This document shows positions 49,383 to 60,127 of a DNA stretch of 64,000 bases, one piece after another (the first letter of the stretch is position 1; the number at the start of each line of letters is the position of its first letter). The stretch covers positions 70,633-134,632 of the forward strand of contig NZ_JRFE01000028.1 of assembly GCF_000756305.1 (NCBI RefSeq), read 5' to 3'. A program made the position numbers and the translations under genes. The notes beneath the pieces are model-generated. The model worked only from the letters and a program-made list of their open reading frames with translations, had not been told where the DNA came from and searched no databases. This DNA comes from Myxosarcina sp. GI1. GTDB lineage: Bacteria; Cyanobacteriota; Cyanobacteriia; Cyanobacteriales; Xenococcaceae.

Positions 49383-50672
49383 TTATGTCTTGGACAGTCT
49401 TTTAAATACATATCGCGTAGCCCAAATAGTAAATAAAGGCAGACAGACAGCATGAACTAATAAAACCGTAGCTGCAACACCAATACTCTGCCAGTAAACG
49501 CCAATTAATAAACTCAGGCTAAATAACGTAGTAAAAATAACGTTCCAATATAAGTCTATTTGGGGTTTATCTACGGCAATTAGTAACTGAGACGCAGAGT
49601 CGGCAAAAGGACGAGGAATAGCCGACAGACAAACTAAAATCAGTACGGGGATAGCAGAAATCCATTTTTCACCGAAAACGAGAGGTACGTATATAGGTGC
49701 GAGACTAGATTGCAATAATACCATTGGCACGATAATTAGAGCAACAGTTTTCATGCTGCCAAAATATCTTTGTTTGAATTGAACTATATTGGCACGTGCA
49801 TCGCAAAGATGAGGCAGTAAAGCAGCTTTGATAGAAGTAATAATCCCCAGGCTGATACCCAAGCCAGCATTAAAAGCAAAATAATAAACGCCTAAAGCAT
49901 CAATGCTGAGAAAGCGTCCGACAATTAAATAATCTAAATTGCCTCGTAAATTATTTAATAGTTCTACTCCCAGAACATTACGTCCAAAACGGAGTAGATC
50001 GCCCCAGCCTACGGTAGTAAACTTGAGTTTTGGTCGCCAGGAATGATTTTTGAGCATAATGTATACCCAAATTGGGGGTACCAGTAGCTTGGGTAAGATA
50101 ATCGCCCACATTCCCAAACCCGCGATCGCAAAAATTAGTGATAATACATTATCGGTAGAAAACTGAACCATTTCTACCAGCGCGATCGCTTTAAGTCGAT
50201 TTTCTCTCTGGATTAGTGCTGCCTGTACCAAACCGTGAGGAATTAGCAACAAACTAAACGCCATAGCGCAGATGGGCAAAATTAACTGCTCGTCACGATA
50301 AAACCAAGCTAGAGGAAAAGCCGCAATACACTGAATGACAAATAGGGCGATCGCAATAACCCAATTGAGCCAATAAGCAGATTGTGCTAGTTGTGAGACA
50401 TTTTCGGCTTTGGCTTGAATCAATCGCGTACCAATACCATTGCGAGTAAATACCCGCACGATATCGTTAGTAGTAAGAACGATCGCTACCAAGCCGTAGT
50501 CGTGTTGAGTGAGAAACCGCGCCAGAACAATTGTAGTCAGCAAGCGGGTGACTCGAATTACCGCGCCAGAAAGTCCCAGCCAGCCCAAGTTGCGGGTAAA
50601 AGTGCTGTTGGTTTTTTTTAGTCGATACTCTCGGAGGCGCGATCTAAATCCGCGAAATATATTGCTTTTCAC
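49383..50672 (-). CDS. Polysaccharide-type flippase (MOP/oligosaccharidyl-lipid exporter)
   Basis: A 429-residue integral membrane protein with about twelve helices. The N-terminal TIVLARFLTQHDYGLVAIVLTTNDIV and later GRFLSIDALGVYYFAFNAGLGIS repeats are typical of MOP-superfamily (Wzx/RfbX) lipid-linked polysaccharide exporters. It overlaps the end of the glycosyltransferase by 4 bases and is last in the operon; probably moves the finished sugar-lipid across the inner membrane. Confidence 0.92.
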   Translation of the reverse strand: MKSNIFRGFRSRLREYRLKKTNSTFTRNLGWLGLSGAVIRVTRLLTTIVLARFLTQHDYGLVAIVLTTNDIVRVFTRNGIGTRLIQAKAENVSQLAQSAYWLNWVIAIALFVIQCIAAFPLAWFYRDEQLILPICAMAFSLLLIPHGLVQAALIQRENRLKAIALVEMVQFSTDNVLSLIFAIAGLGMWAIILPKLLVPPIWVYIMLKNHSWRPKLKFTTVGWGDLLRFGRNVLGVELLNNLRGNLDYLIVGRFLSIDALGVYYFAFNAGLGISLGIITSIKAALLPHLCDARANIVQFKQRYFGSMKTVALIIVPMVLLQSSLAPIYVPLVFGEKWISAIPVLILVCLSAIPRPFADSASQLLIAVDKPQIDLYWNVIFTTLFSLSLLIGVYWQSIGVAATVLLVHAVCLPLFTIWATRYVFKRLSKT

Positions 50673-51646
50673 TTAGTTACATCTCCTAAAAATACCTCCC
50701 AATTACGCAGAAATTCTTGCCAAACATCTGTAACCGAAGTTCTACCAGCTTTACCCCAGACGGCTAGATTCTGTTGGGGTAAGGATGCGATCGCATTTTT
50801 TAATTGTTCGATATCGTTAGGAGGAACCAACAAGCCACAATCTCGCATCTGTTCTGATAAACCATCTATATCTGAGGCAATTACTGGTTTACCAGCAGCT
50901 TTAGCTTCCAAGCAAACTAAACCCCAGGGTTCCCAACGAGAAGGGATAACTATCGCATCGCTGTTGGCTAAAAAGCTAGCTATATTATCGATTGCGCCCA
51001 GTAAGCGAACATGAGGTAAATCTTTTGCCAAATCTTTAATTAATTTTTCGTCTTGTCCGTAACCTGCCAAACAAAGCTGGAATTTTTCTGGCGGTAAAGC
51101 TGCAAATGCCTGCAATAATATGTCAAAGCCTTTTTGAGGAGCAAAACGACCATAAGCACCCAGCTTTAAAGGTTGACTGGGATGGCGATCGGGAATTTTT
51201 AATACTTTGGCAATTTTAGTAGCTGGAGAAATAATTCTTACTTTCTTCGAGCAAACTAACCAGTTACTTACCATCCATTCTCGTTGCGCCTGTGAAATAC
51301 TAATTACGCCATCAGCCAATCCGTATGCCAAACGCAACATAGTTCTAAAACGTAACTTAGAACTAACCTGCTCTGTTTCAAATCCCTGACAGTAATGATG
51401 ATCGCAGATATAAATTTTGCTATGCCGTTTGAGTAACCAAAGAGCGGATAGATATTTCCAAGCGCAAGGATAGTGAAAAATAATTACATCTGGTTTAGAA
51501 GTTTTTAACTCGACTTTAGCCGCTTCGAGTCGCAACATTGAAAAGTCAAACTGTTTTTGTAAGGGTGAAGCAATTAGCTGTTTGACTAGATGATTGGAAC
51601 CACCCGCTCGCTTATCGCCAATTAAATGCCATACTTTTGGTTTCAT
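50669..51646 (-). CDS. GT4-type glycosyltransferase
   Basis: A 325-residue GT-B glycosyltransferase of family 4. The start is at 51646 (MKPKVWHLIGDKRAGGSNHL), where ATG overlaps the preceding stop (ATGA); the open frame extends 18 residues further but inside the sulfotransferase. The C-terminal donor-site motif is AIVIPSRWEPWGLVCLEAKAAGKPVIAS, with the family's E-x7-E arrangement, preceded by LKLGAYGRFAPQKGFDILLQ. Substrate unknown; part of the sulfated-glycan operon. Confidence 0.92.
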   Translation of the reverse strand: MKPKVWHLIGDKRAGGSNHLVKQLIASPLQKQFDFSMLRLEAAKVELKTSKPDVIIFHYPCAWKYLSALWLLKRHSKIYICDHHYCQGFETEQVSSKLRFRTMLRLAYGLADGVISISQAQREWMVSNWLVCSKKVRIISPATKIAKVLKIPDRHPSQPLKLGAYGRFAPQKGFDILLQAFAALPPEKFQLCLAGYGQDEKLIKDLAKDLPHVRLLGAIDNIASFLANSDAIVIPSRWEPWGLVCLEAKAAGKPVIASDIDGLSEQMRDCGLLVPPNDIEQLKNAIASLPQQNLAVWGKAGRTSVTDVWQEFLRNWEVFLGDVTK

Positions 51647-52542
51647 ACTGCACTCCCCACTAACCAAGCTGATAGATCGCGATCGATTAAATCCTGACAC
51701 TCTAAAATATCTGGGCGATAAAGATCGATTAGCTGCTGTCTTACTTCGGGAGCAATTTGCGGCGTATTGAGGTTTTTATGCTGAATTTTTTGCCGCATTT
51801 TAGCGGGAAATAAAGGTTTGAGCAAAGTTTTGAGGGGATTGGGTTTGGTTAATAATTGATGGAACAATTTATTTTTGGGCATTCCCGATTTGTTAGGACG
51901 CAAAGCCATATTGGGAACAAAAGTATTGTCAACTTCAATAAAGCGAAAAATGTTTTGAAACAGTGCGACTGGATTTTCTTTTAAGTCTTCGTACAGGTAA
52001 ACTTTTATTTGGCTTGGGGCAAAAATTTCGTAGTAGCGTTTTAGTTGCGCTCCATAATAGCCAAGCTGAATATAGTGCCAGAACCATTCCCAATTGTTGG
52101 CGATCCTGGTTGGTTCGTCTTCCAATGCTAAAGCAAAATTTTGGTGGGGTTCGCGATCGTCTCGTACTGTATGTAAGAAATTAGCATAAGCTCTTTCTAC
52201 AGGGTTACGCAGAATAGCAATTAAACGAGCGTCGGGAATATAGTTATTAATTCTTATTGCTGCTTGAGGAAAGTAAAGATAAGAGGGGCAAGCTTCTCCT
52301 GTTGCTAATTCGCTGGTAACTCCTGCAAATTCTGCTTGATATTTACTCAATTCGGTAATTGAAAAATTTTTAAGAGCTTCATCTCCAGGACCTCGAACAT
52401 CGATCTTCTCACCTTCAAAAGCAAAAAAATTAGTTTCCTTAGTCGGTGTCATATAAATTTGCGGGTGCTGTTGGAGATATTCGTGCAGAGCAGTCGTCCC
52501 TGCTTTAGCCGCACCAATAACCAAAAAATTGGGCATAGTCAT
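51643..52542 (-). CDS. PAPS-dependent sulfotransferase (Sulfotransfer_1/3 type)
   Basis: A 299-residue sulfotransferase: 5'-PSB loop FLVIGAAKAGTTALHEYLQ (near residue 5), the 3'-PB segment RLIAILRNPVERAYANFLH, and EACPSYLYFP between. It resembles bacterial enzymes that sulfate surface glycans and the heparan-type group. First gene of the operon sulfotransferase-GT-flippase, in which each gene overlaps the next by four bases. No signal sequence, consistent with cytoplasmic sulfation of a lipid-linked sugar. Confidence 0.93.
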   Translation of the reverse strand: MTMPNFLVIGAAKAGTTALHEYLQQHPQIYMTPTKETNFFAFEGEKIDVRGPGDEALKNFSITELSKYQAEFAGVTSELATGEACPSYLYFPQAAIRINNYIPDARLIAILRNPVERAYANFLHTVRDDREPHQNFALALEDEPTRIANNWEWFWHYIQLGYYGAQLKRYYEIFAPSQIKVYLYEDLKENPVALFQNIFRFIEVDNTFVPNMALRPNKSGMPKNKLFHQLLTKPNPLKTLLKPLFPAKMRQKIQHKNLNTPQIAPEVRQQLIDLYRPDILECQDLIDRDLSAWLVGSAV

Positions 52543-52677: not shown

Positions 52678-53385
52678 CTACTTATAATATTCGTCGCGCT
52701 CGCAAACGGGAATTAGATGCTGTTTTAAAAATTGTTCGTACTCGTAGTCGGCAAAATGTTGGCGAATAAAGCTCCATTCTCCCGACCAGTTCATAGTCGA
52801 TTTTCTAGATACGCGACGCGATAGTTCGGGATGACGGGCATAAAATACCGCATCGGTTAAGTCTCGATACAAGCCCTCAAAAAAATAGTCTTCAGTCCGA
52901 TCCCAGTAGTAACCTTCTTCCCATAGTTCATCGTCCCAAAACAATTCATCATCGTAATAATAGTATCGATCCCAATAATAATCGCGAGTGTCTCTAATCC
53001 TGTTTCTAATTGTTTCGCGACGATCTAAACGCCGCCACCGTTCGCGTTTTTCACGCTCTTTTTCTCGTTCGGATAATAGATAGTAATGGTTTATATGAGG
53101 TCGCTGGCAACTTTGATAGATAACTTTATTGACAACTCTGCGAATTTCGGCTCTTTCACGACGATAGAGAGTATGATGGATTTTGATTCGTTTATTACGC
53201 ATTTCTGGACGTAATAGTTTAAAAAAATAGTTAGTCCAATAATCAACTTTTTCTAAATCTTCTGGTTTTTGATGACAGTCTAGATAAGATTCGCAATATC
53301 TGTGGGCTAATGCTTTCTGTTGTGTAGAAGTTAATATAGATGTGCTTATAAGTAAACTTAATATTAACAACCGAGTAAGTTTCAT
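52678..53385 (-). CDS. Secreted Tyr/Arg/Asp-rich protein of unknown function
   Basis: A 235-residue protein, not recognised. It has a clear signal peptide (residues 1-27, ending near KALA), then alternating charged helices (ERRERAEIRRVV-like, REKEREKRERWRRLDRR) and an extreme Tyr/Asp/Glu/Trp segment (YYWDRYYYYDDELFWDDELW). Cys residues are few (CESYLDC, SCQRP, PVCERD) and could pair. No homologous family comes to mind. Monocistronic. Confidence 0.6.
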   Translation of the reverse strand: MKLTRLLILSLLISTSILTSTQQKALAHRYCESYLDCHQKPEDLEKVDYWTNYFFKLLRPEMRNKRIKIHHTLYRRERAEIRRVVNKVIYQSCQRPHINHYYLLSEREKEREKRERWRRLDRRETIRNRIRDTRDYYWDRYYYYDDELFWDDELWEEGYYWDRTEDYFFEGLYRDLTDAVFYARHPELSRRVSRKSTMNWSGEWSFIRQHFADYEYEQFLKQHLIPVCERDEYYK

Positions 53386-53506: not shown

Positions 53507-54775
53507 TCATTTGCTTCGCTGCAAACAAGCAATCTGACGTTCGCTTAGGTTAGGCGTTACTCGTTTCCACTCTTCTGGGGAAAGTTTAAATTCACTCAAA
53601 GATATTTCGGGCATTGTAGATGTATAGCCAAAAGTAATTGAGTAGCGATTGCGCTCGGCTGGTTTTGCCCGATGAAAAACTTTACAAGGATCGGTAATAA
53701 TGATGCTTCCTGCTTTGGCAGCACAGGTTTTCCAATTCTGTGGCGGAACAACTTCAGCCATAGCTTCTTCGCTAACAAACCCCGTTGTATAGCCTAGAGA
53801 ACTAATAATTTGTTCGGTAAAAGAGGGGTGTATATATTCGTAAGGACCTCCAGCAATACCCACATTGTTGAGATAGACGATGATTTTAACCATGCGTTCG
53901 TCATCAATATCTAAATGCCACTGTCTGGCATCGGTTATGGGAGCATCGGCAATATCTCGCCTGAGATCGACACCGTGAAACATTAAAGGCAGACCGATAT
54001 AGTTTTCTACAATATCTAATAATCGCTCTCCCAACCCCCAGAACAAAATTTCAGTATGCAAGAATTTACGCATTGAAGGTATACCCGCTCGCCAATTTTT
54101 GAGATGAGAAAGTGTATAAAGATGGGGGTGTAGAACAATTATTTCTTTAACAAATCGTTTGGTGTGAGGCAATCTTAATTCTGGTAGAGAAGATACATAA
54201 ACTCCTTTTTGTTGAAGCGTTGTAACAATTTTTGCATCTTCTTTAGATAGCTGAGGAAGCCGATCGCGATATTTTTCTCTTGCTATCTGACGCTCGCGAT
54301 CGCTTAAAGTAGTTATATTAAATTTCTGTTGGGCAATTTGTTTGACTTTATGTTTGGCAAGTTTAGCTTTACGTCTTATACGTTTCAAGTTAGATTTAAC
54401 AGGCTCGCTCTGCTGTAAAGCACTTTCTATGGTTGCTTTAAGATCTTCACGTCGATACGGTTTGGTAATGTAGCCCTGGGGTTTGGTTTCTCTCGCTTTT
54501 TTTAAGGTGGCGCGATCGCTACAAGCACTTAGATAAATTATGGGAATCTGGTAAGCAGCTTGAATTTTTTTACTAGTATCGATACCATCTATCTGACCTT
54601 TTAATACGATATCCATTAGTATCAAATCTGGTTGAGCTTCTGCCACCTTGTTCATTGCTTCGATTCCCGAATCAACAATCCCTGCAACTTGATACTCACA
54701 ACGCTTTAGATCGTGCGCCAAACTTTTTGCAGCGATAATTTCATCTTCAACAATTAGAATACTAATTGATTTCAT
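53507..54775 (-). CDS. Response regulator fused to a 2OG-Fe(II) oxygenase-like domain
   Basis: A 422-residue protein. Residues 1-120 are a complete receiver: acidic IVEDE, phosphoacceptor Asp55 in LILMDIVLKG, Lys105 in YITKPY. A basic linker (RIRRKAKLAKHKVKQ) follows. The C-terminal part (about 190-395) has the non-heme iron dioxygenase pattern: WHLDIDDE with His287/Asp289, IIVYLNN strand, then VFHRAKPAERNRYSI with His368 and Arg375 or Arg377 for 2-oxoglutarate. This resembles phytanoyl-CoA/aspartyl-hydroxylase-like folds. Target unknown. Divergent from the REC-GGDEF-EAL operon. Confidence 0.78.
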   Translation of the reverse strand: MKSISILIVEDEIIAAKSLAHDLKRCEYQVAGIVDSGIEAMNKVAEAQPDLILMDIVLKGQIDGIDTSKKIQAAYQIPIIYLSACSDRATLKKARETKPQGYITKPYRREDLKATIESALQQSEPVKSNLKRIRRKAKLAKHKVKQIAQQKFNITTLSDRERQIAREKYRDRLPQLSKEDAKIVTTLQQKGVYVSSLPELRLPHTKRFVKEIIVLHPHLYTLSHLKNWRAGIPSMRKFLHTEILFWGLGERLLDIVENYIGLPLMFHGVDLRRDIADAPITDARQWHLDIDDERMVKIIVYLNNVGIAGGPYEYIHPSFTEQIISSLGYTTGFVSEEAMAEVVPPQNWKTCAAKAGSIIITDPCKVFHRAKPAERNRYSITFGYTSTMPEISLSEFKLSPEEWKRVTPNLSERQIACLQRSK

Positions 54776-55187: not shown

Positions 55188-57005
55188 ATGAACGATACTA
55201 AAATTTTAATTGTCGAAGACGAATTGTTAATTGCCAAAGGTATTGCCAGAGACGTGCTAAAAAGCGGTTACAAAATTGAAAAAGTTGTTTCATCAGGACA
55301 AGCCGCACTAGAACAAGTAAAAACACTGGTACCCGATTTAATCTTAATGGACATTGCTATTAAAGGTAAAATGAACGGGATTGAAACGGCGGCTAAAATT
55401 AGAGAAAACAATGATATACCCATTATCTTTTTAACTGCTTATGCTGATGAAAAAACCATAGAACAAGCAGTTGCTACGGGCGGATATGGATATATTCTCA
55501 AACCTTACAAAGTTGCAGAACTAAATGCCGCAATCAAAATGGCATTAAATAAACATCGAGAGAAGCTGGCAATTAGAAAATCATTGCAGCAGGCGATCGG
55601 ACAATTTTCTAAAGAAAATTTGAATGTCTACCAAGATAATTTAACGGGTATACCCAATCAGTTATTTTTACGCGATCTGTTTGAAAATTTACTTACTGGA
55701 CTAAATGAGCAATACGATTTAGAACAAAGTGAATTGCCTTCAGTAGAGTCACTTCAATCGCCAATACAACAAGTCGCCGTTATTTATATTAATCTGGATA
55801 AATTTCAACGAATTAACGATTCTTTGAGTAGCGATCGCGTTAATTTTTTGATACGCAAAGTTGTAGATAAATTTATTCAATGCAAAAATCATTGCGATCG
55901 AGAATCTTCAATTATTCGCTTAAAACAAAGTGAATTTGTAATTTTGCTGGCAGACATCGACCAAAAACAAATTGCTGGAAACTTAGCTCAAAACATTATT
56001 GAAGAATTACGACGACCTTTGGTTATCGATGGACAAGAAATTTTCTTAACGGCTAGTATCGGAATTTCTTTGTATCCTCTAGACGGCATGGAAGTGGAAC
56101 AATTAATCGAACAAGCCAAGAACACTATGAAACATGTTTTACAACAAGGAGGCGACCAGTATAAATTCTATAGCAATGCTTTTGCTCTAAATTCTTCATC
56201 AGCTTCTCACAATCTGTTTTTGGAGGCGGAACTACATCATGCTATAGAACAAGAACAATTAGAAATTTTCTATCAACCAAAGATAGAGCTTAAAAATAAT
56301 AAAATTTTAGGTATGGAAGCTCTTTTACGCTGGAACCATCCTAAATTAGGTAGAGTTTCTCCAGATAAATTTATTCCAATTGCCGAACAAAGCAGTTTGA
56401 TAGAAAAAATTGGCGAATGGGTATTAGAAGAAGCTTGTAGGCAAACTAAGATATGGCACGAACGAGGTTTTGACTCGCTTAAAGTTGCGGTTAATTTATC
56501 TGGTCGCCAATTTAAGCAATTAAATCTTTTTCACAAACTCTCTCACCTGTTAATGAATTCGGGTTTAGAAGCTAAATTTCTACAACTAGAATTAACCGAA
56601 CAAATCTTAGTAGAAAATATTAAAGTTAATATTCAAAGGTTGAACTTTATCAAAAAACTTGGTATTCAAATTGCTCTTGATGATTTTGGTAGGGGGTACT
56701 CTTCACTAGGTTATTTACAACAATTCCCCTTTGATATTTTAAAAATCGATCGCTGTTTTGTTAGCGAGATAGATCGCAATAAAACTAATGCCGTAATTAC
56801 CAAAACAATTATTGAAATGGCACATCAGCTTGATTTAAAAGTAGTTGCTGAAGGGGTAGAAACACAAGCAGAATTAAAGTTTTTAATGCAGCACAACTGC
56901 GATGAAGTGCAAGGTTATTTGTTTAGTCGTCCTTTGCCAGCCAAAGAATTTGAAGAATTATTGAAAAGTAATAAATATTCGACAGTTACTTCTCAAAAGC
57001 TTTAG
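55188..57005 (+). CDS. REC-GGDEF(degenerate)-EAL c-di-GMP phosphodiesterase
   Basis: A 605-residue response regulator. Receiver 1-120 (Asp55 in LILMDIAIKG, Lys in YILKPY). A GGDEF-like domain (about 150-320) whose catalytic GGDEF motif reads KQSEF, so no cyclase activity is expected. EAL domain (about 345-590) with the catalytic GMEALLRWNHP (EALLR), the loop-6 DDFGRGYSSLGYLQQFPFD and AEGVETQAEL, so c-di-GMP hydrolysis is probable. Followed by the hybrid kinase at 57062, 56 bp later; its receiver is very like that of the oxygenase fusion. Confidence 0.93.
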   Translation: MNDTKILIVEDELLIAKGIARDVLKSGYKIEKVVSSGQAALEQVKTLVPDLILMDIAIKGKMNGIETAAKIRENNDIPIIFLTAYADEKTIEQAVATGGYGYILKPYKVAELNAAIKMALNKHREKLAIRKSLQQAIGQFSKENLNVYQDNLTGIPNQLFLRDLFENLLTGLNEQYDLEQSELPSVESLQSPIQQVAVIYINLDKFQRINDSLSSDRVNFLIRKVVDKFIQCKNHCDRESSIIRLKQSEFVILLADIDQKQIAGNLAQNIIEELRRPLVIDGQEIFLTASIGISLYPLDGMEVEQLIEQAKNTMKHVLQQGGDQYKFYSNAFALNSSSASHNLFLEAELHHAIEQEQLEIFYQPKIELKNNKILGMEALLRWNHPKLGRVSPDKFIPIAEQSSLIEKIGEWVLEEACRQTKIWHERGFDSLKVAVNLSGRQFKQLNLFHKLSHLLMNSGLEAKFLQLELTEQILVENIKVNIQRLNFIKKLGIQIALDDFGRGYSSLGYLQQFPFDILKIDRCFVSEIDRNKTNAVITKTIIEMAHQLDLKVVAEGVETQAELKFLMQHNCDEVQGYLFSRPLPAKEFEELLKSNKYSTVTSQKL

Positions 57006-57061: not shown

Positions 57062-60000
57062 ATGAAGCATAATTTACGATTCGATCGCGTTAAATTATCG
57101 ATATTTTTAGTTTTTATAGGTTCGGTAGCAACAGCTTGTTCCTTGTTTGTTACCAACATTCCCTGGGAAACTAATAAATCTGAAAGTATATCTATAAATA
57201 AAGCGATCGATGAAGATTTTGGAGCGACACCTGATTCAAAAGTGTCAACTATTAAGGTTGGCGTGATGGCAATTAGAGGTGTTAATAAAACGCTTCAGAA
57301 ATGGCAAGCTACTATCGATTATCTAAACCAAAAAATTCCCGATCGCACTTTTGAGTTAGTGCCGTTAGAGTTCGACTCTATGGAGGAGGTAATTGCCAGA
57401 CAAGAAATTGATTTCGTTCTGCCCAATCCTGGGATGTATGTAGAGTTGGAATGGGTATACGGAGCGAGACGTATTGCCACCCTGCAAAATCTACGCCTGG
57501 GCAAACCCTATACTCAGTTTGGAGCGGTAATCTTTCGTAGAGCCGATCGCCAGGAACTTCAAGAATTAAGAGATTTGAAGGGCAAAAAGTTTATGGCAGT
57601 TAGTGAAATTGCCTTTGGCGGTTGGCAAATGGCATGGGAAACCCTGTTAGAAAATGGAGTCAATCCCTATCGTCATTTTAAAGAGCTTCGCTTTGGCGGT
57701 AGTCATGATGCAGTAGTCTATGCCGTACGAGATGGAACTGTCGATGCGGGAACGGTTCGCACCGATACTTTAGAAAGAATGGCTAAAGAAGGCAAAATTA
57801 ATCTGCAAGATTTTGTCGTTCTCCATCAGCAAACGCAATACAAAAAAGAGTTTCCGTTTGCTTTAAGTACCAAATTATATCCAGAATGGCCCTTTGCGAG
57901 TTTACCCCATACTTCAGCAGAGTTAGCAGAAAAAGTTGCTATTGCTTTAATTGAAATGCCTTCAGATACGCCCGCGGCGATCGCAGGTAAATATTATGGC
58001 TGGACGATACCCGCTAATTATCACCTCTGTCACGAAACTCTACGCACCTTAAAAGTTCGTCCCTATGAAGATTGGGGAAAATTAACCTGGAAAGAAGTTA
58101 TCTATTTATATCGCTACTGGTGGCTGGGATTTGTGAGTTTGGGAATTATTACGATCGCTTATAGTGCTATTTATCTCCTACACCGCAAACGTAATGAAAC
58201 TGTATTATTGCACACTCAAGAGGAATTAAGAACGTCCAAACAACTATTCCAGCTGGTGATGGATAATATTCCCCAGTACATTTTCTGGAAAGATCGTAAC
58301 TTTTTATATCTAGGCTGCAATCAGAACTTTGCTAAAGCGGCAGGCTTGGAAAATCCAGAACAAATTATTGGCAAAAACGACTACGAACTACCTTGGAAAA
58401 GGGAAGAAACAGACTTTTTTCGAGAATGCGATCGCCGAGTAATGGAATCTAACACTGCTGAATTGAGTATAGTAGAACCACAACTTCAAGCAGATGGCAA
58501 ACAAACTTGGGTGGAAACTAATAAAGTTCCCCTTCACGATGCAGACGGCAATGTTATAGGTATTTTGGGGACTTATCAAGACATTACAGTTCGCAAACAA
58601 GCAGAAATTACTCTCCAACAGTCAAAAGAAGAATTAGAAACTCGCGTTCGTGAAAGAACTCGTGAATTAATAGAAGCCAAAGAAAAAGCAGAAGTAGCCA
58701 ACCAAGCCAAAAGCGAGTTTCTTTCTAATATGAGTCACGAACTGCGGACTCCTCTCAACGGTATTCTTGGCTATGCTCAAATCTTAAAGCGCGATCGCTC
58801 CCTGACATCACATCAAAGCAGCAGTTTGCAAATTATTAAAGATAGTGGCGAACATCTATTAACTCTTATCAACGATATTCTAGATTTATCTAAAATCGAA
58901 GCTCGCAAACTAGAACTTAACCCTACAGATATTCACTTTAAAAGTTTTTTATCTGGTATAGAAAACATTGTCAAAATGCGGGCGATCGCCAAAGGCATTG
59001 AGTTTAAATGTCGGGCTTTAACTCCTTTGCCGACTGGCATTATAGCTGATGAGAAGCGTCTCAGACAAATTTTACTTAACTTGTTGAGTAATGCCATAAA
59101 ATTTACCGATGTTGGCGAAGTAACTTTAAATGTAAATGTTATTAACGGCAAAATTAGTACACAGCAGCAAGAGAATAGTAATTCAAACTTACAAGTTTTT
59201 CGCTTTGAAGTAATCGATACTGGAATTGGAATTGCTCCTCAACAGCTAGATAAAATTTTTCAAGTCTTCGAGCAAGTAGGAGATAAAAAACGACGAGAAG
59301 AAGGCACGGGATTGGGTTTGTCTATTTGCAAACAGTTAGTCAAACTAATGGGAGGCAAGCTTCAAGTTCGCAGCGAAATAGACAAAGGTTCGACTTTCTG
59401 GTTTGACGTGATTTTACCTATAGTCGAAACGGTAGCTAAAAACACGGTGAAACAACAGCATCGGCAAATTGTCGGTTATTTGGGTCAGAAAAAGCACATT
59501 CTAGTAGTAGATGATAAAGAAGAAAACCGCTTGGTATTACAAAATATGCTCCAACCGTTGGGGTTTGAAATAACTTTAGCGGAAGATGGTCAAAAAGAAA
59601 TCGATCTGGCTCTAAAAATTAAACCCGACTGTATTTTGACCGATTTGGTTATGCCAGTTAAAACAGGATTTGAGGCAGTTAAAGAAATTCGTAATCTTCC
59701 AGCTATCAAAGATGTAGTTATTATTGCTATTTCTGCTAACGTTCTCGATCTTGATGTACAGAAAAGTCAAATCATGGGTTGCGATCTCTTTTTACCCAAA
59801 CCTGTAGATGAATCTAAATTACTGACCATTTTGCAAGAGTATCTACAGTTGGAATGGATTTATGAAGAAACTACTCAATCCGAAACTGTTCTTTCAATAG
59901 CTTCTCAATCAAAAACGCCACAAAATTTTGTCATACCACCTCAAAAAGAAATTGAAATTTTATATGAATTAGCTCTACTCGGCAGCATGAAAAAAATTAT

Positions 60001-60127
60001 CGAAAGAGCCAATTACCTGCAAGAAATAGACAGTAATTATGCAACTTTTGCCAACGAACTACAGGAATTAGCTAGAGGATTTCAAGAAAAAGCGATTGTC
60101 AATTTGGTAGAGCAGTATCTGCCATAA
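57062..60127 (+). CDS. PhnD-sensor hybrid histidine kinase
   Basis: A 1021-residue membrane kinase. An N-terminal hydrophobic segment (11-30) with a possible weak lipobox (VATAC) leads to a periplasmic PhnD/phosphate-phosphonate-binding-type domain (about 65-335; [35 protein letters not shown]). A transmembrane helix follows (about 350-372), then PAS (395-520), HisKA with His559 in [13 protein letters not shown], HATPase ([15 protein letters not shown]), and a receiver with Asp861 in [10 protein letters not shown]. The tail may be an HPt-like helical domain. Ligand unknown. 30 bp before the next gene. Confidence 0.93.

Follow-up and report, generated by a model that had tools for sequence, protein, structure and literature searches.

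A receiver domain fused to a predicted Fe(II)/2-oxoglutarate oxygenase in Myxosarcina sp. GI1 and related cyanobacteria

The window analysed here is a stretch of 64,000 nucleotides from Myxosarcina sp. GI1 (assembly GCF_000756305.1, contig NZ_JRFE01000028.1, positions 70,633 to 134,632). It contains a gene whose product joins an N-terminal response-regulator receiver, by way of a basic helical linker, to a predicted Fe(II)/2-oxoglutarate (2OG) oxygenase domain (Table 1). Downstream of the fusion and co-directional with it lie genes for a small protein, a sulfotransferase, a glycosyltransferase and a polysaccharide flippase; on its other side lie a second response regulator and a hybrid histidine kinase. 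The original prediction for this locus, made from the nucleotide sequence, was that a receiver is fused to a C-terminal domain of the oxygenase type. The reading frame, the Pfam match and the predicted fold all confirm this, and every residue position given in that prediction (Asp55, Lys105, His287, Asp289, His368, Arg375 and Arg377) is correct. We are thus almost certain that the locus encodes a genuine receiver-oxygenase gene product.

Table 1. Genes and features of the fusion locus, with positions in the window
Feature	Positions	Strand	Basis
REC-linker-2OG oxygenase fusion CDS (422 aa, ATG start, one unbroken ORF)	53507..54775	-	ORF and domain matches
Receiver domain, residues 1-122	54410..54775	-	Pfam PF00072 at residues 6-116; VIA-align
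Asp55 codon, predicted phosphoacceptor	54611..54613	-	Sequence, alignment
Lys105 codon, receiver	54461..54463	-	Sequence, alignment
Basic helical linker, residues 123-175	54251..54409	-	Model helices, charge, alignment
Predicted Fe(II)/2-oxoglutarate oxygenase domain (double-stranded beta-helix), residues 176-422	53510..54250	-	AlphaFold2, VIA-align
His287-Leu288-Asp289, predicted metal-binding His-x-Asp	53909..53917	-	61/62 alignment rows each for His and Asp
His368, predicted distal metal-binding histidine	53672..53674	-	62/62 alignment rows
Arg377 (His368 + 9), candidate 2OG carboxylate-binding arginine	53645..53647	-	62/62 alignment rows
Small protein without a Pfam family, apparently exported to judge by its N-terminus	52678..53385	-	Pfam search, sequence
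Sulfotransferase (PF13469/PF00685)	51643..52542	-	Pfam
Glycosyltransferase group 1	50669..51700	-	Pfam
Wzx-type polysaccharide flippase (PF13440)	49383..50672	-	Pfam
REC-GGDEF-EAL response regulator, divergent from the fusion	55188..57005	+	Domain matches
Hybrid histidine kinase (PhnD-like binding domain, PAS, HisKA, HATPase, REC), candidate partner	57062..60127	+	Domain matches

Pfam assigns residues 6-116 of the protein to Response_reg (PF00072) with an E-value of 3.6e-20 and a score of 72.6 bits (curated cut-off 30.2). Ninety-five NCBIfam families match the protein, and the 25 of these 95 that were listed are all receiver proteins; the top match, to a PhyR-type model (E 3.6e-22), falls far under the curated cut-off. 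The modelled receiver is close to solved receivers, among them CheY, YycF and PorX (VIA-align Z 20-21). Receivers depend on a phosphoacceptor aspartate, a conserved lysine, an acidic pair and a switch serine or threonine, and the receiver in the window carries this full set as Asp55, Lys105, Glu10/Asp11 and Ser83.

The C-terminal half is recognized through its fold. No oxygenase family of Pfam, PhyH (PF05721) and 2OG-FeII_Oxy_3 (PF13640) included, matches the protein at E<=1, and the one Pfam match besides the receiver is sub-threshold (DUF7290, E 0.17). NCBIfam returned nothing for this part at E<=0.1, and sequence-profile searches of the PDB brought up no oxygenase, such that only the fold comparison connected the domain to solved oxygenases. 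AlphaFold2 modelled the full-length protein with a mean pLDDT of 83.1. Run on residues 150-422 by themselves, and given an alignment of 62 sequences, it reached a pLDDT of 90.1 and a pTM of 0.90. In this confident C-terminal model the double-stranded beta-helix that the original prediction implied is indeed formed. Foldseek ranked the 2OG-Fe(II) oxygenase ColD first (E 5.6e-12), followed by the proline hydroxylase H11, GriE, SnoN, MysH and HygX, with EctD lower. The VIA-align superposition on ColD gave a Z of 20.0 and an rmsd of 3.2 A over 230 aligned residues at 16% identity; KanJ (Z 17.2), PrhA and AsqJ were also among the close folds. All 50 PDB entries listed by VIA-align, which was a second pass over Foldseek's own 1,000 best chains, are Fe/2OG oxygenases according to their own titles or those of sister entries.

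Homologs of the domain come nearer to the established families. At E<=1, 18 of 26 relatives matched 2OG-FeII_Oxy_3 (best 3.4e-5) and 8 of 26 matched PhyH; at E<=0.01, PhyH (best 8.5e-8) and 2OG-FeII_Oxy_3 (best 7e-5) each matched 16 of 62. Profile searches of this kind thus identify the domain weakly in the relatives and do not identify it in the protein of the window. The domain belongs in the Fe(II)/2OG superfamily, outside the Pfam PhyH and 2OG-FeII_Oxy_3 families proper; the predicted fold, the motif and these weak matches of relatives together support the assignment of the output domain as a double-stranded beta-helix Fe(II)/2OG oxygenase.

Known Fe(II)/2OG oxygenases have a His-x-Asp...His motif whose distal histidine is closely followed by an arginine. 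In our 62-row alignment of the C-terminal domain, His287 and Asp289 are each conserved in 61 rows, His368 and Arg377 in all 62, and Arg375 in 14. The original prediction had named both arginines; Arg377 stands, and of the two it is the stronger candidate for binding 2OG, Arg375 being found in so few rows. In both the full-length and the C-terminal models, His287 and His368 are borne on predicted strands. We consider the domain very likely to be a catalytically active oxygenase.

The genome of Myxosarcina sp. GI1 (G000 in our numbering) encodes a second fusion, on contig C29, that is 61% identical to the window copy over its whole length, as well as, on C14, a copy of the C-terminal part that stands alone (36% identical). 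The C-terminal part was matched at E<=1e-3 in 28 of 60 genomes, GI1 included, and the 19 of these that score below 1e-30 are all in its family. The original prediction had proposed counting such fusions, and in what was searched there are nine genes (one of them interrupted) in seven of the 27 genomes of this family: two each in G000 and G012, and one each in G003, G004, G009, G010 and G023. The six bearing genomes other than that of GI1 are Xenococcaceae and Hyellaceae metagenome assemblies. The interrupted gene, in G023, is broken by a TnpB-like ORF with OrfB_IS605 and Cas12f1-like TNB domains; this ORF (L045:7720-8443, on G023:C16) continues in frame from the receiver part. Immediately upstream of the G003 fusion (on G003:C82) lie a TnpB-like ORF and an ORF that is, by eye, recombinase-like (L043:10331-11953).

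Relatives of the oxygenase typically stand alone. They are about 300 residues long and mostly cyanobacterial, show some 30-43% identity over the C-terminal part, basic helix included, and share its motif. A scan of named genomes yielded 193 relatives, the best 80 of which comprise seven fusion genes, from the six genomes other than GI1's own, and 73 others. The frames of these 73 span 269-344 residues, save two from actinobacteria (397 and 699 residues) in which a receiver search found no receiver. That search, run over the best 80 loci and two further long frames (G151:C102 and G211:C241), returned 6 of 82, all known fusions; for G023 the set contained just the oxygenase fragment. In a sample of 388 genomes from the order, 160 have a match at E<=1e-3 and 121 a match below 1e-50, and neither of the two frames outside the family that are long enough to hold a receiver, among the matches listed from these genomes, has one. 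As the survey covered the best 80 of 193 relatives and the listed matches, rarer fusions could escape it.

A quickly built tree of 62 domains, with SH-aLRT values in place of bootstraps, separates all nine fusions from the rest by a branch with a support of 100. One fusion event followed by duplications is therefore the simplest history. Both halves look to be under purifying selection, judging by dN/dS values of 0.10-0.27 for the receiver and 0.11-0.19 for the oxygenase (NG86, six pairs), values that are rough given that dS exceeds 1 in several of the pairs.

Homologs from other sources were also seen. The stand-alone homologs of a Mycobacterium and a Geodermatophilus (L090 and L127) group together inside the cyanobacterial tree. 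An IMG/VR viral contig carries a stand-alone member of 323 residues (L200:4827-5798) near ORFs that appear, by eye, collagen-like and amidase-like. Plasmid B of the root-nodule strain Sinorhizobium americanum (L206) bears a distant homolog, annotated as hypothetical, beside nodD2. In the neighbourhoods of three of the 23 matching plasmid records (two rhizobial, one Methylobacterium) we found no hint of a substrate; the homologs there are annotated as hypothetical.

The linker was modelled as two helices, residues 125-152 and 157-172, and the net charge of residues 123-172 is +12. In the alignment it corresponds to the basic helix at the N-terminus of the stand-alone relatives, which has a mean net charge of +5.3 (n=70; of 80 loci, nine were left out beforehand and one lacked the pattern). 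A basic amphipathic helix thus precedes the catalytic domain in fused and stand-alone forms alike, and this alignment suggests that an already complete stand-alone enzyme gained a receiver at its N-terminus. One guess is that the helix may bind a membrane or a partner.

Two sets of signalling genes accompany the fusions of GI1. The window copy has the hybrid kinase nearby, and the REC-GGDEF-EAL protein encoded between them has as its nearest receivers in the genome that of the window fusion (44%) and then that of the C29 fusion (43%). A kinase common to the REC-GGDEF-EAL protein and the window fusion is plausible. For the C29 paralog, the candidate partner is in the gene row itself: a GAF-HisKA_2-HATPase kinase and a single-domain receiver (L040:7108-8623) are followed by the fusion on the same strand, with 16 bases between kinase and receiver and a four-base overlap between receiver and fusion. 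We reject a partner kinase conserved across the fusions; at E<=1e-60, the C29 kinase found a match in only one of the six other fusion genomes, G009 (43%, frames of about 1,690 residues).

The downstream neighbours of the window copy place it in a polysaccharide gene cluster, and relatives of the same four genes surround the fusion in G003, G004 and G009. The small protein, which is rich in tyrosine and arginine and has a single copy in the genome, adjoins the fusion in G003 and G004 and belongs to the same cluster in G009, where the fusion is oriented opposite to the polysaccharide genes. Further Pfam matches in these three clusters are Poly_export, GNVR (just under its cut-off), a sugar transferase with STAS, Glyco_tran_28_C, Alg14 and a GH5 cellulase. 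At the G023 locus, GH5-like genes and a gene for a STAS protein accompany an Alg13/Alg14-type pair; the locus counts as a polysaccharide locus only by virtue of the Alg13/Alg14 pair, the third match being the STAS protein.

We compared these surroundings with those of 60 control stretches from three genomes, using nine polysaccharide gene classes as tblastn seeds, of which the GT2 seed was named by eye and one also catches bare STAS proteins. At least two classes were present at four of the seven other fusion loci, at all five loci of the Calothrix-type stand-alone proteins, at one of 68 other stand-alone loci and at none of the controls. For at least one class the counts were four of seven, five of five, 12 of 68 and three of 60. 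Fisher's test against the controls gave p-values of 5e-5 for the fusion loci and 1e-7 for the Calothrix-type loci, which are optimistic because the seeds came from the tested loci, because loci that are related do not count as independent observations and because the controls represent three genomes. The C29 paralog and three of the seven other fusion loci have none of the nine classes nearby. Since these loci, and 67 of the 68 other stand-alone loci, have fewer than two classes, the link to this pathway is not family-wide. The surface-glycan connection, one of those that had been proposed, hence has the support of gene neighbourhood for about half of the fusions, and the paralog and the remaining three loci give it no such support. 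From these surroundings we tentatively place the substrate in an exopolysaccharide pathway, at a little less than even odds.

These observations are compatible with the following mechanism. Asp55 would be phosphorylated by a histidine kinase, and, if the neighbour of the C29 paralog is anything to go by, this kinase would be of the HisKA_2 type. The receiver would then dimerise differently or pack differently against the basic helical linker, a change that would turn on, turn off or place the PhyH-like Fe(II)/2OG oxygenase. The oxygenase, in turn, would hydroxylate or otherwise oxidise a small molecule or a precursor of a surface polysaccharide, probably a sulfated one. We infer catalysis, the direction of the switch and the substrate alike, and we give this explanation as a whole, a phosphorelay-controlled oxygenase that perhaps serves surface-glycan synthesis, a probability of about 0.5. 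The narrower proposal, that phosphorylation alters the activity or location of the oxygenase, is somewhat more likely than not.

Natural variants separate the two halves. Asp55 is present in eight of the nine fusions and Lys105 in all nine (by alignment and, for G023, the receiver search). The exception is G009, in which glutamate replaces Asp55. Glycine replaces Asp11 in the fusions of G009 and G010 (two of eight rows), which are neighbours in the tree, and glutamine replaces Glu10 in that of G003 (one of eight). The G009 protein (G009:C212, L046:1450-2709) thus has Glu at position 55 and Gly at position 11 together with an intact oxygenase triad; its receiver is perhaps locked or dead. The only row of the alignment without His-x-Asp is one of the two G012 fusions (G012:C91, L048:9592-10854), which reads Trp-Ser-Leu-Gly and, despite its Ser-Leu-Gly, retains Asp55, His368 and Arg377. 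The second fusion of G012 has the intact motif, and the first is possibly a pseudoenzyme beside it. The G009 and G012:C91 proteins count against a strict switch model.

The receiver could instead be a docking or dimerisation module that recruits a constitutively active oxygenase to a kinase, a membrane or a partner, with phosphorylation not gating catalysis. Consistent with this idea, the receiver is the more divergent half (46-75% identical to the window copy in seven rows, against 65-80% for the oxygenase in eight), Asp55 has been lost in a relative that keeps His-x-Asp, 73 of the best 80 loci evidently manage without a receiver, and the basic helix is common to fused and stand-alone forms. 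However, the near-constancy of Asp55 and Lys105 among the fusions, the low dN/dS of the receiver and the position of the paralog directly behind a histidine kinase make this alternative rather unlikely. About equally doubtful is that the oxygenase hydroxylates a free amino acid, a peptide or a secondary metabolite, the polysaccharide neighbourhood being incidental. ColD, GriE, H11, SnoN, PrhA and AsqJ are among its closest folds, and the paralog's locus and three of the seven other fusion loci are outside polysaccharide clusters. On the other hand, KanJ and HygX, whose substrates are aminoglycosides, are also close folds, and a polysaccharide context at the window, G003, G004, G009, G023 and all five Calothrix-type loci contrasts with its absence from the 60 controls.

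Less probable still is that the C-terminal domain is a binding sensor for 2OG, iron or O2, rather than an enzyme, that acts back on the receiver or on partner proteins. The G012:C91 protein suits such a role, with its retained His368 and Arg377 and an oxygenase-domain dN/dS of 0.11 against its intact paralog (a rough value, with dS above 2), but that intact fusion coexists with it in the same genome, and His287, Asp289, His368 and Arg377 occur together in 61 of the 62 rows. Finally, a chance or assembly-made fusion without function is rejected: although the fusion was found in a single family and six of its seven bearing genomes are metagenome assemblies, nine genes in seven genomes form one clade with purifying selection on both halves (dN/dS 0.10-0.27).

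The phosphorelay-controlled oxygenase that we prefer has partial precedents. Lineage-restricted fusions of receivers to enzymes are known, such as the archaeal KaiC-REC proteins and a receiver with a BcsA-like glycosyltransferase described in passages of PMC5847659. Like those, the present protein joins a receiver to a metabolic enzyme, ranges over one family and has a function read from its architecture; unlike the fusions named there, its output is an Fe(II)/2OG oxygenase and its host a cyanobacterium. The words "oxygenase" and "hydroxylase" are absent from the main text of PMC5847659, and the available passages of PMC7824862 are not about a receiver-oxygenase fusion. Among the titles, opening lines of abstracts and passages covered, a range outside which the standard output-domain reviews of Galperin fall, there was no paper on an oxygenase output. 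Receiver-enzyme fusions are therefore already known as a kind, and the oxygenase output is apparently new within that coverage of the literature. With ColD, KanJ, HygX, GriE, H11 and EctD the domain shares a predicted fold over some 210-230 residues and the same motif; it differs from them in its low identity (7-17% among the matches listed) and in the receiver and basic helix at the N-terminus. The receiver also sets the window protein apart from the stand-alone cyanobacterial oxygenases.

For the gene neighbourhood, the closest parallel is the xss system of Synechocystis, in which, according to passages of PMC8205485, a sulfotransferase-bearing cluster makes a sulfated exopolysaccharide under the control of XssS/XssR/XssQ. 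Both loci combine a flippase, glycosyltransferases and sulfotransferases with an adjoining two-component regulator. Whereas xss is controlled transcriptionally in that account, the regulator here carries its own predicted catalytic domain; the word "oxygenase" does not occur in the main text of PMC8205485. It is conceivable, at distinctly less than even odds, that these proteins represent a class of response regulators with an oxygenase output, in which a phosphorelay would switch the Fe(II)/2OG-dependent modification of a surface-polysaccharide precursor with no transcription step.

These findings draw attention to a common cyanobacterial oxygenase family that neither Pfam nor NCBIfam names as its own, one branch of which is tied to exopolysaccharide clusters. 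The protein is small, and the question of gating is therefore within reach of standard 2OG-turnover assays. If phosphorylation does gate the oxygenase, two-component signalling would directly control an O2-, iron- and 2OG-dependent modification at the level of the enzyme. Sensing would then be joined to the supply of O2, iron and 2OG at the enzyme itself, and the sensor would switch chemistry rather than a gene.
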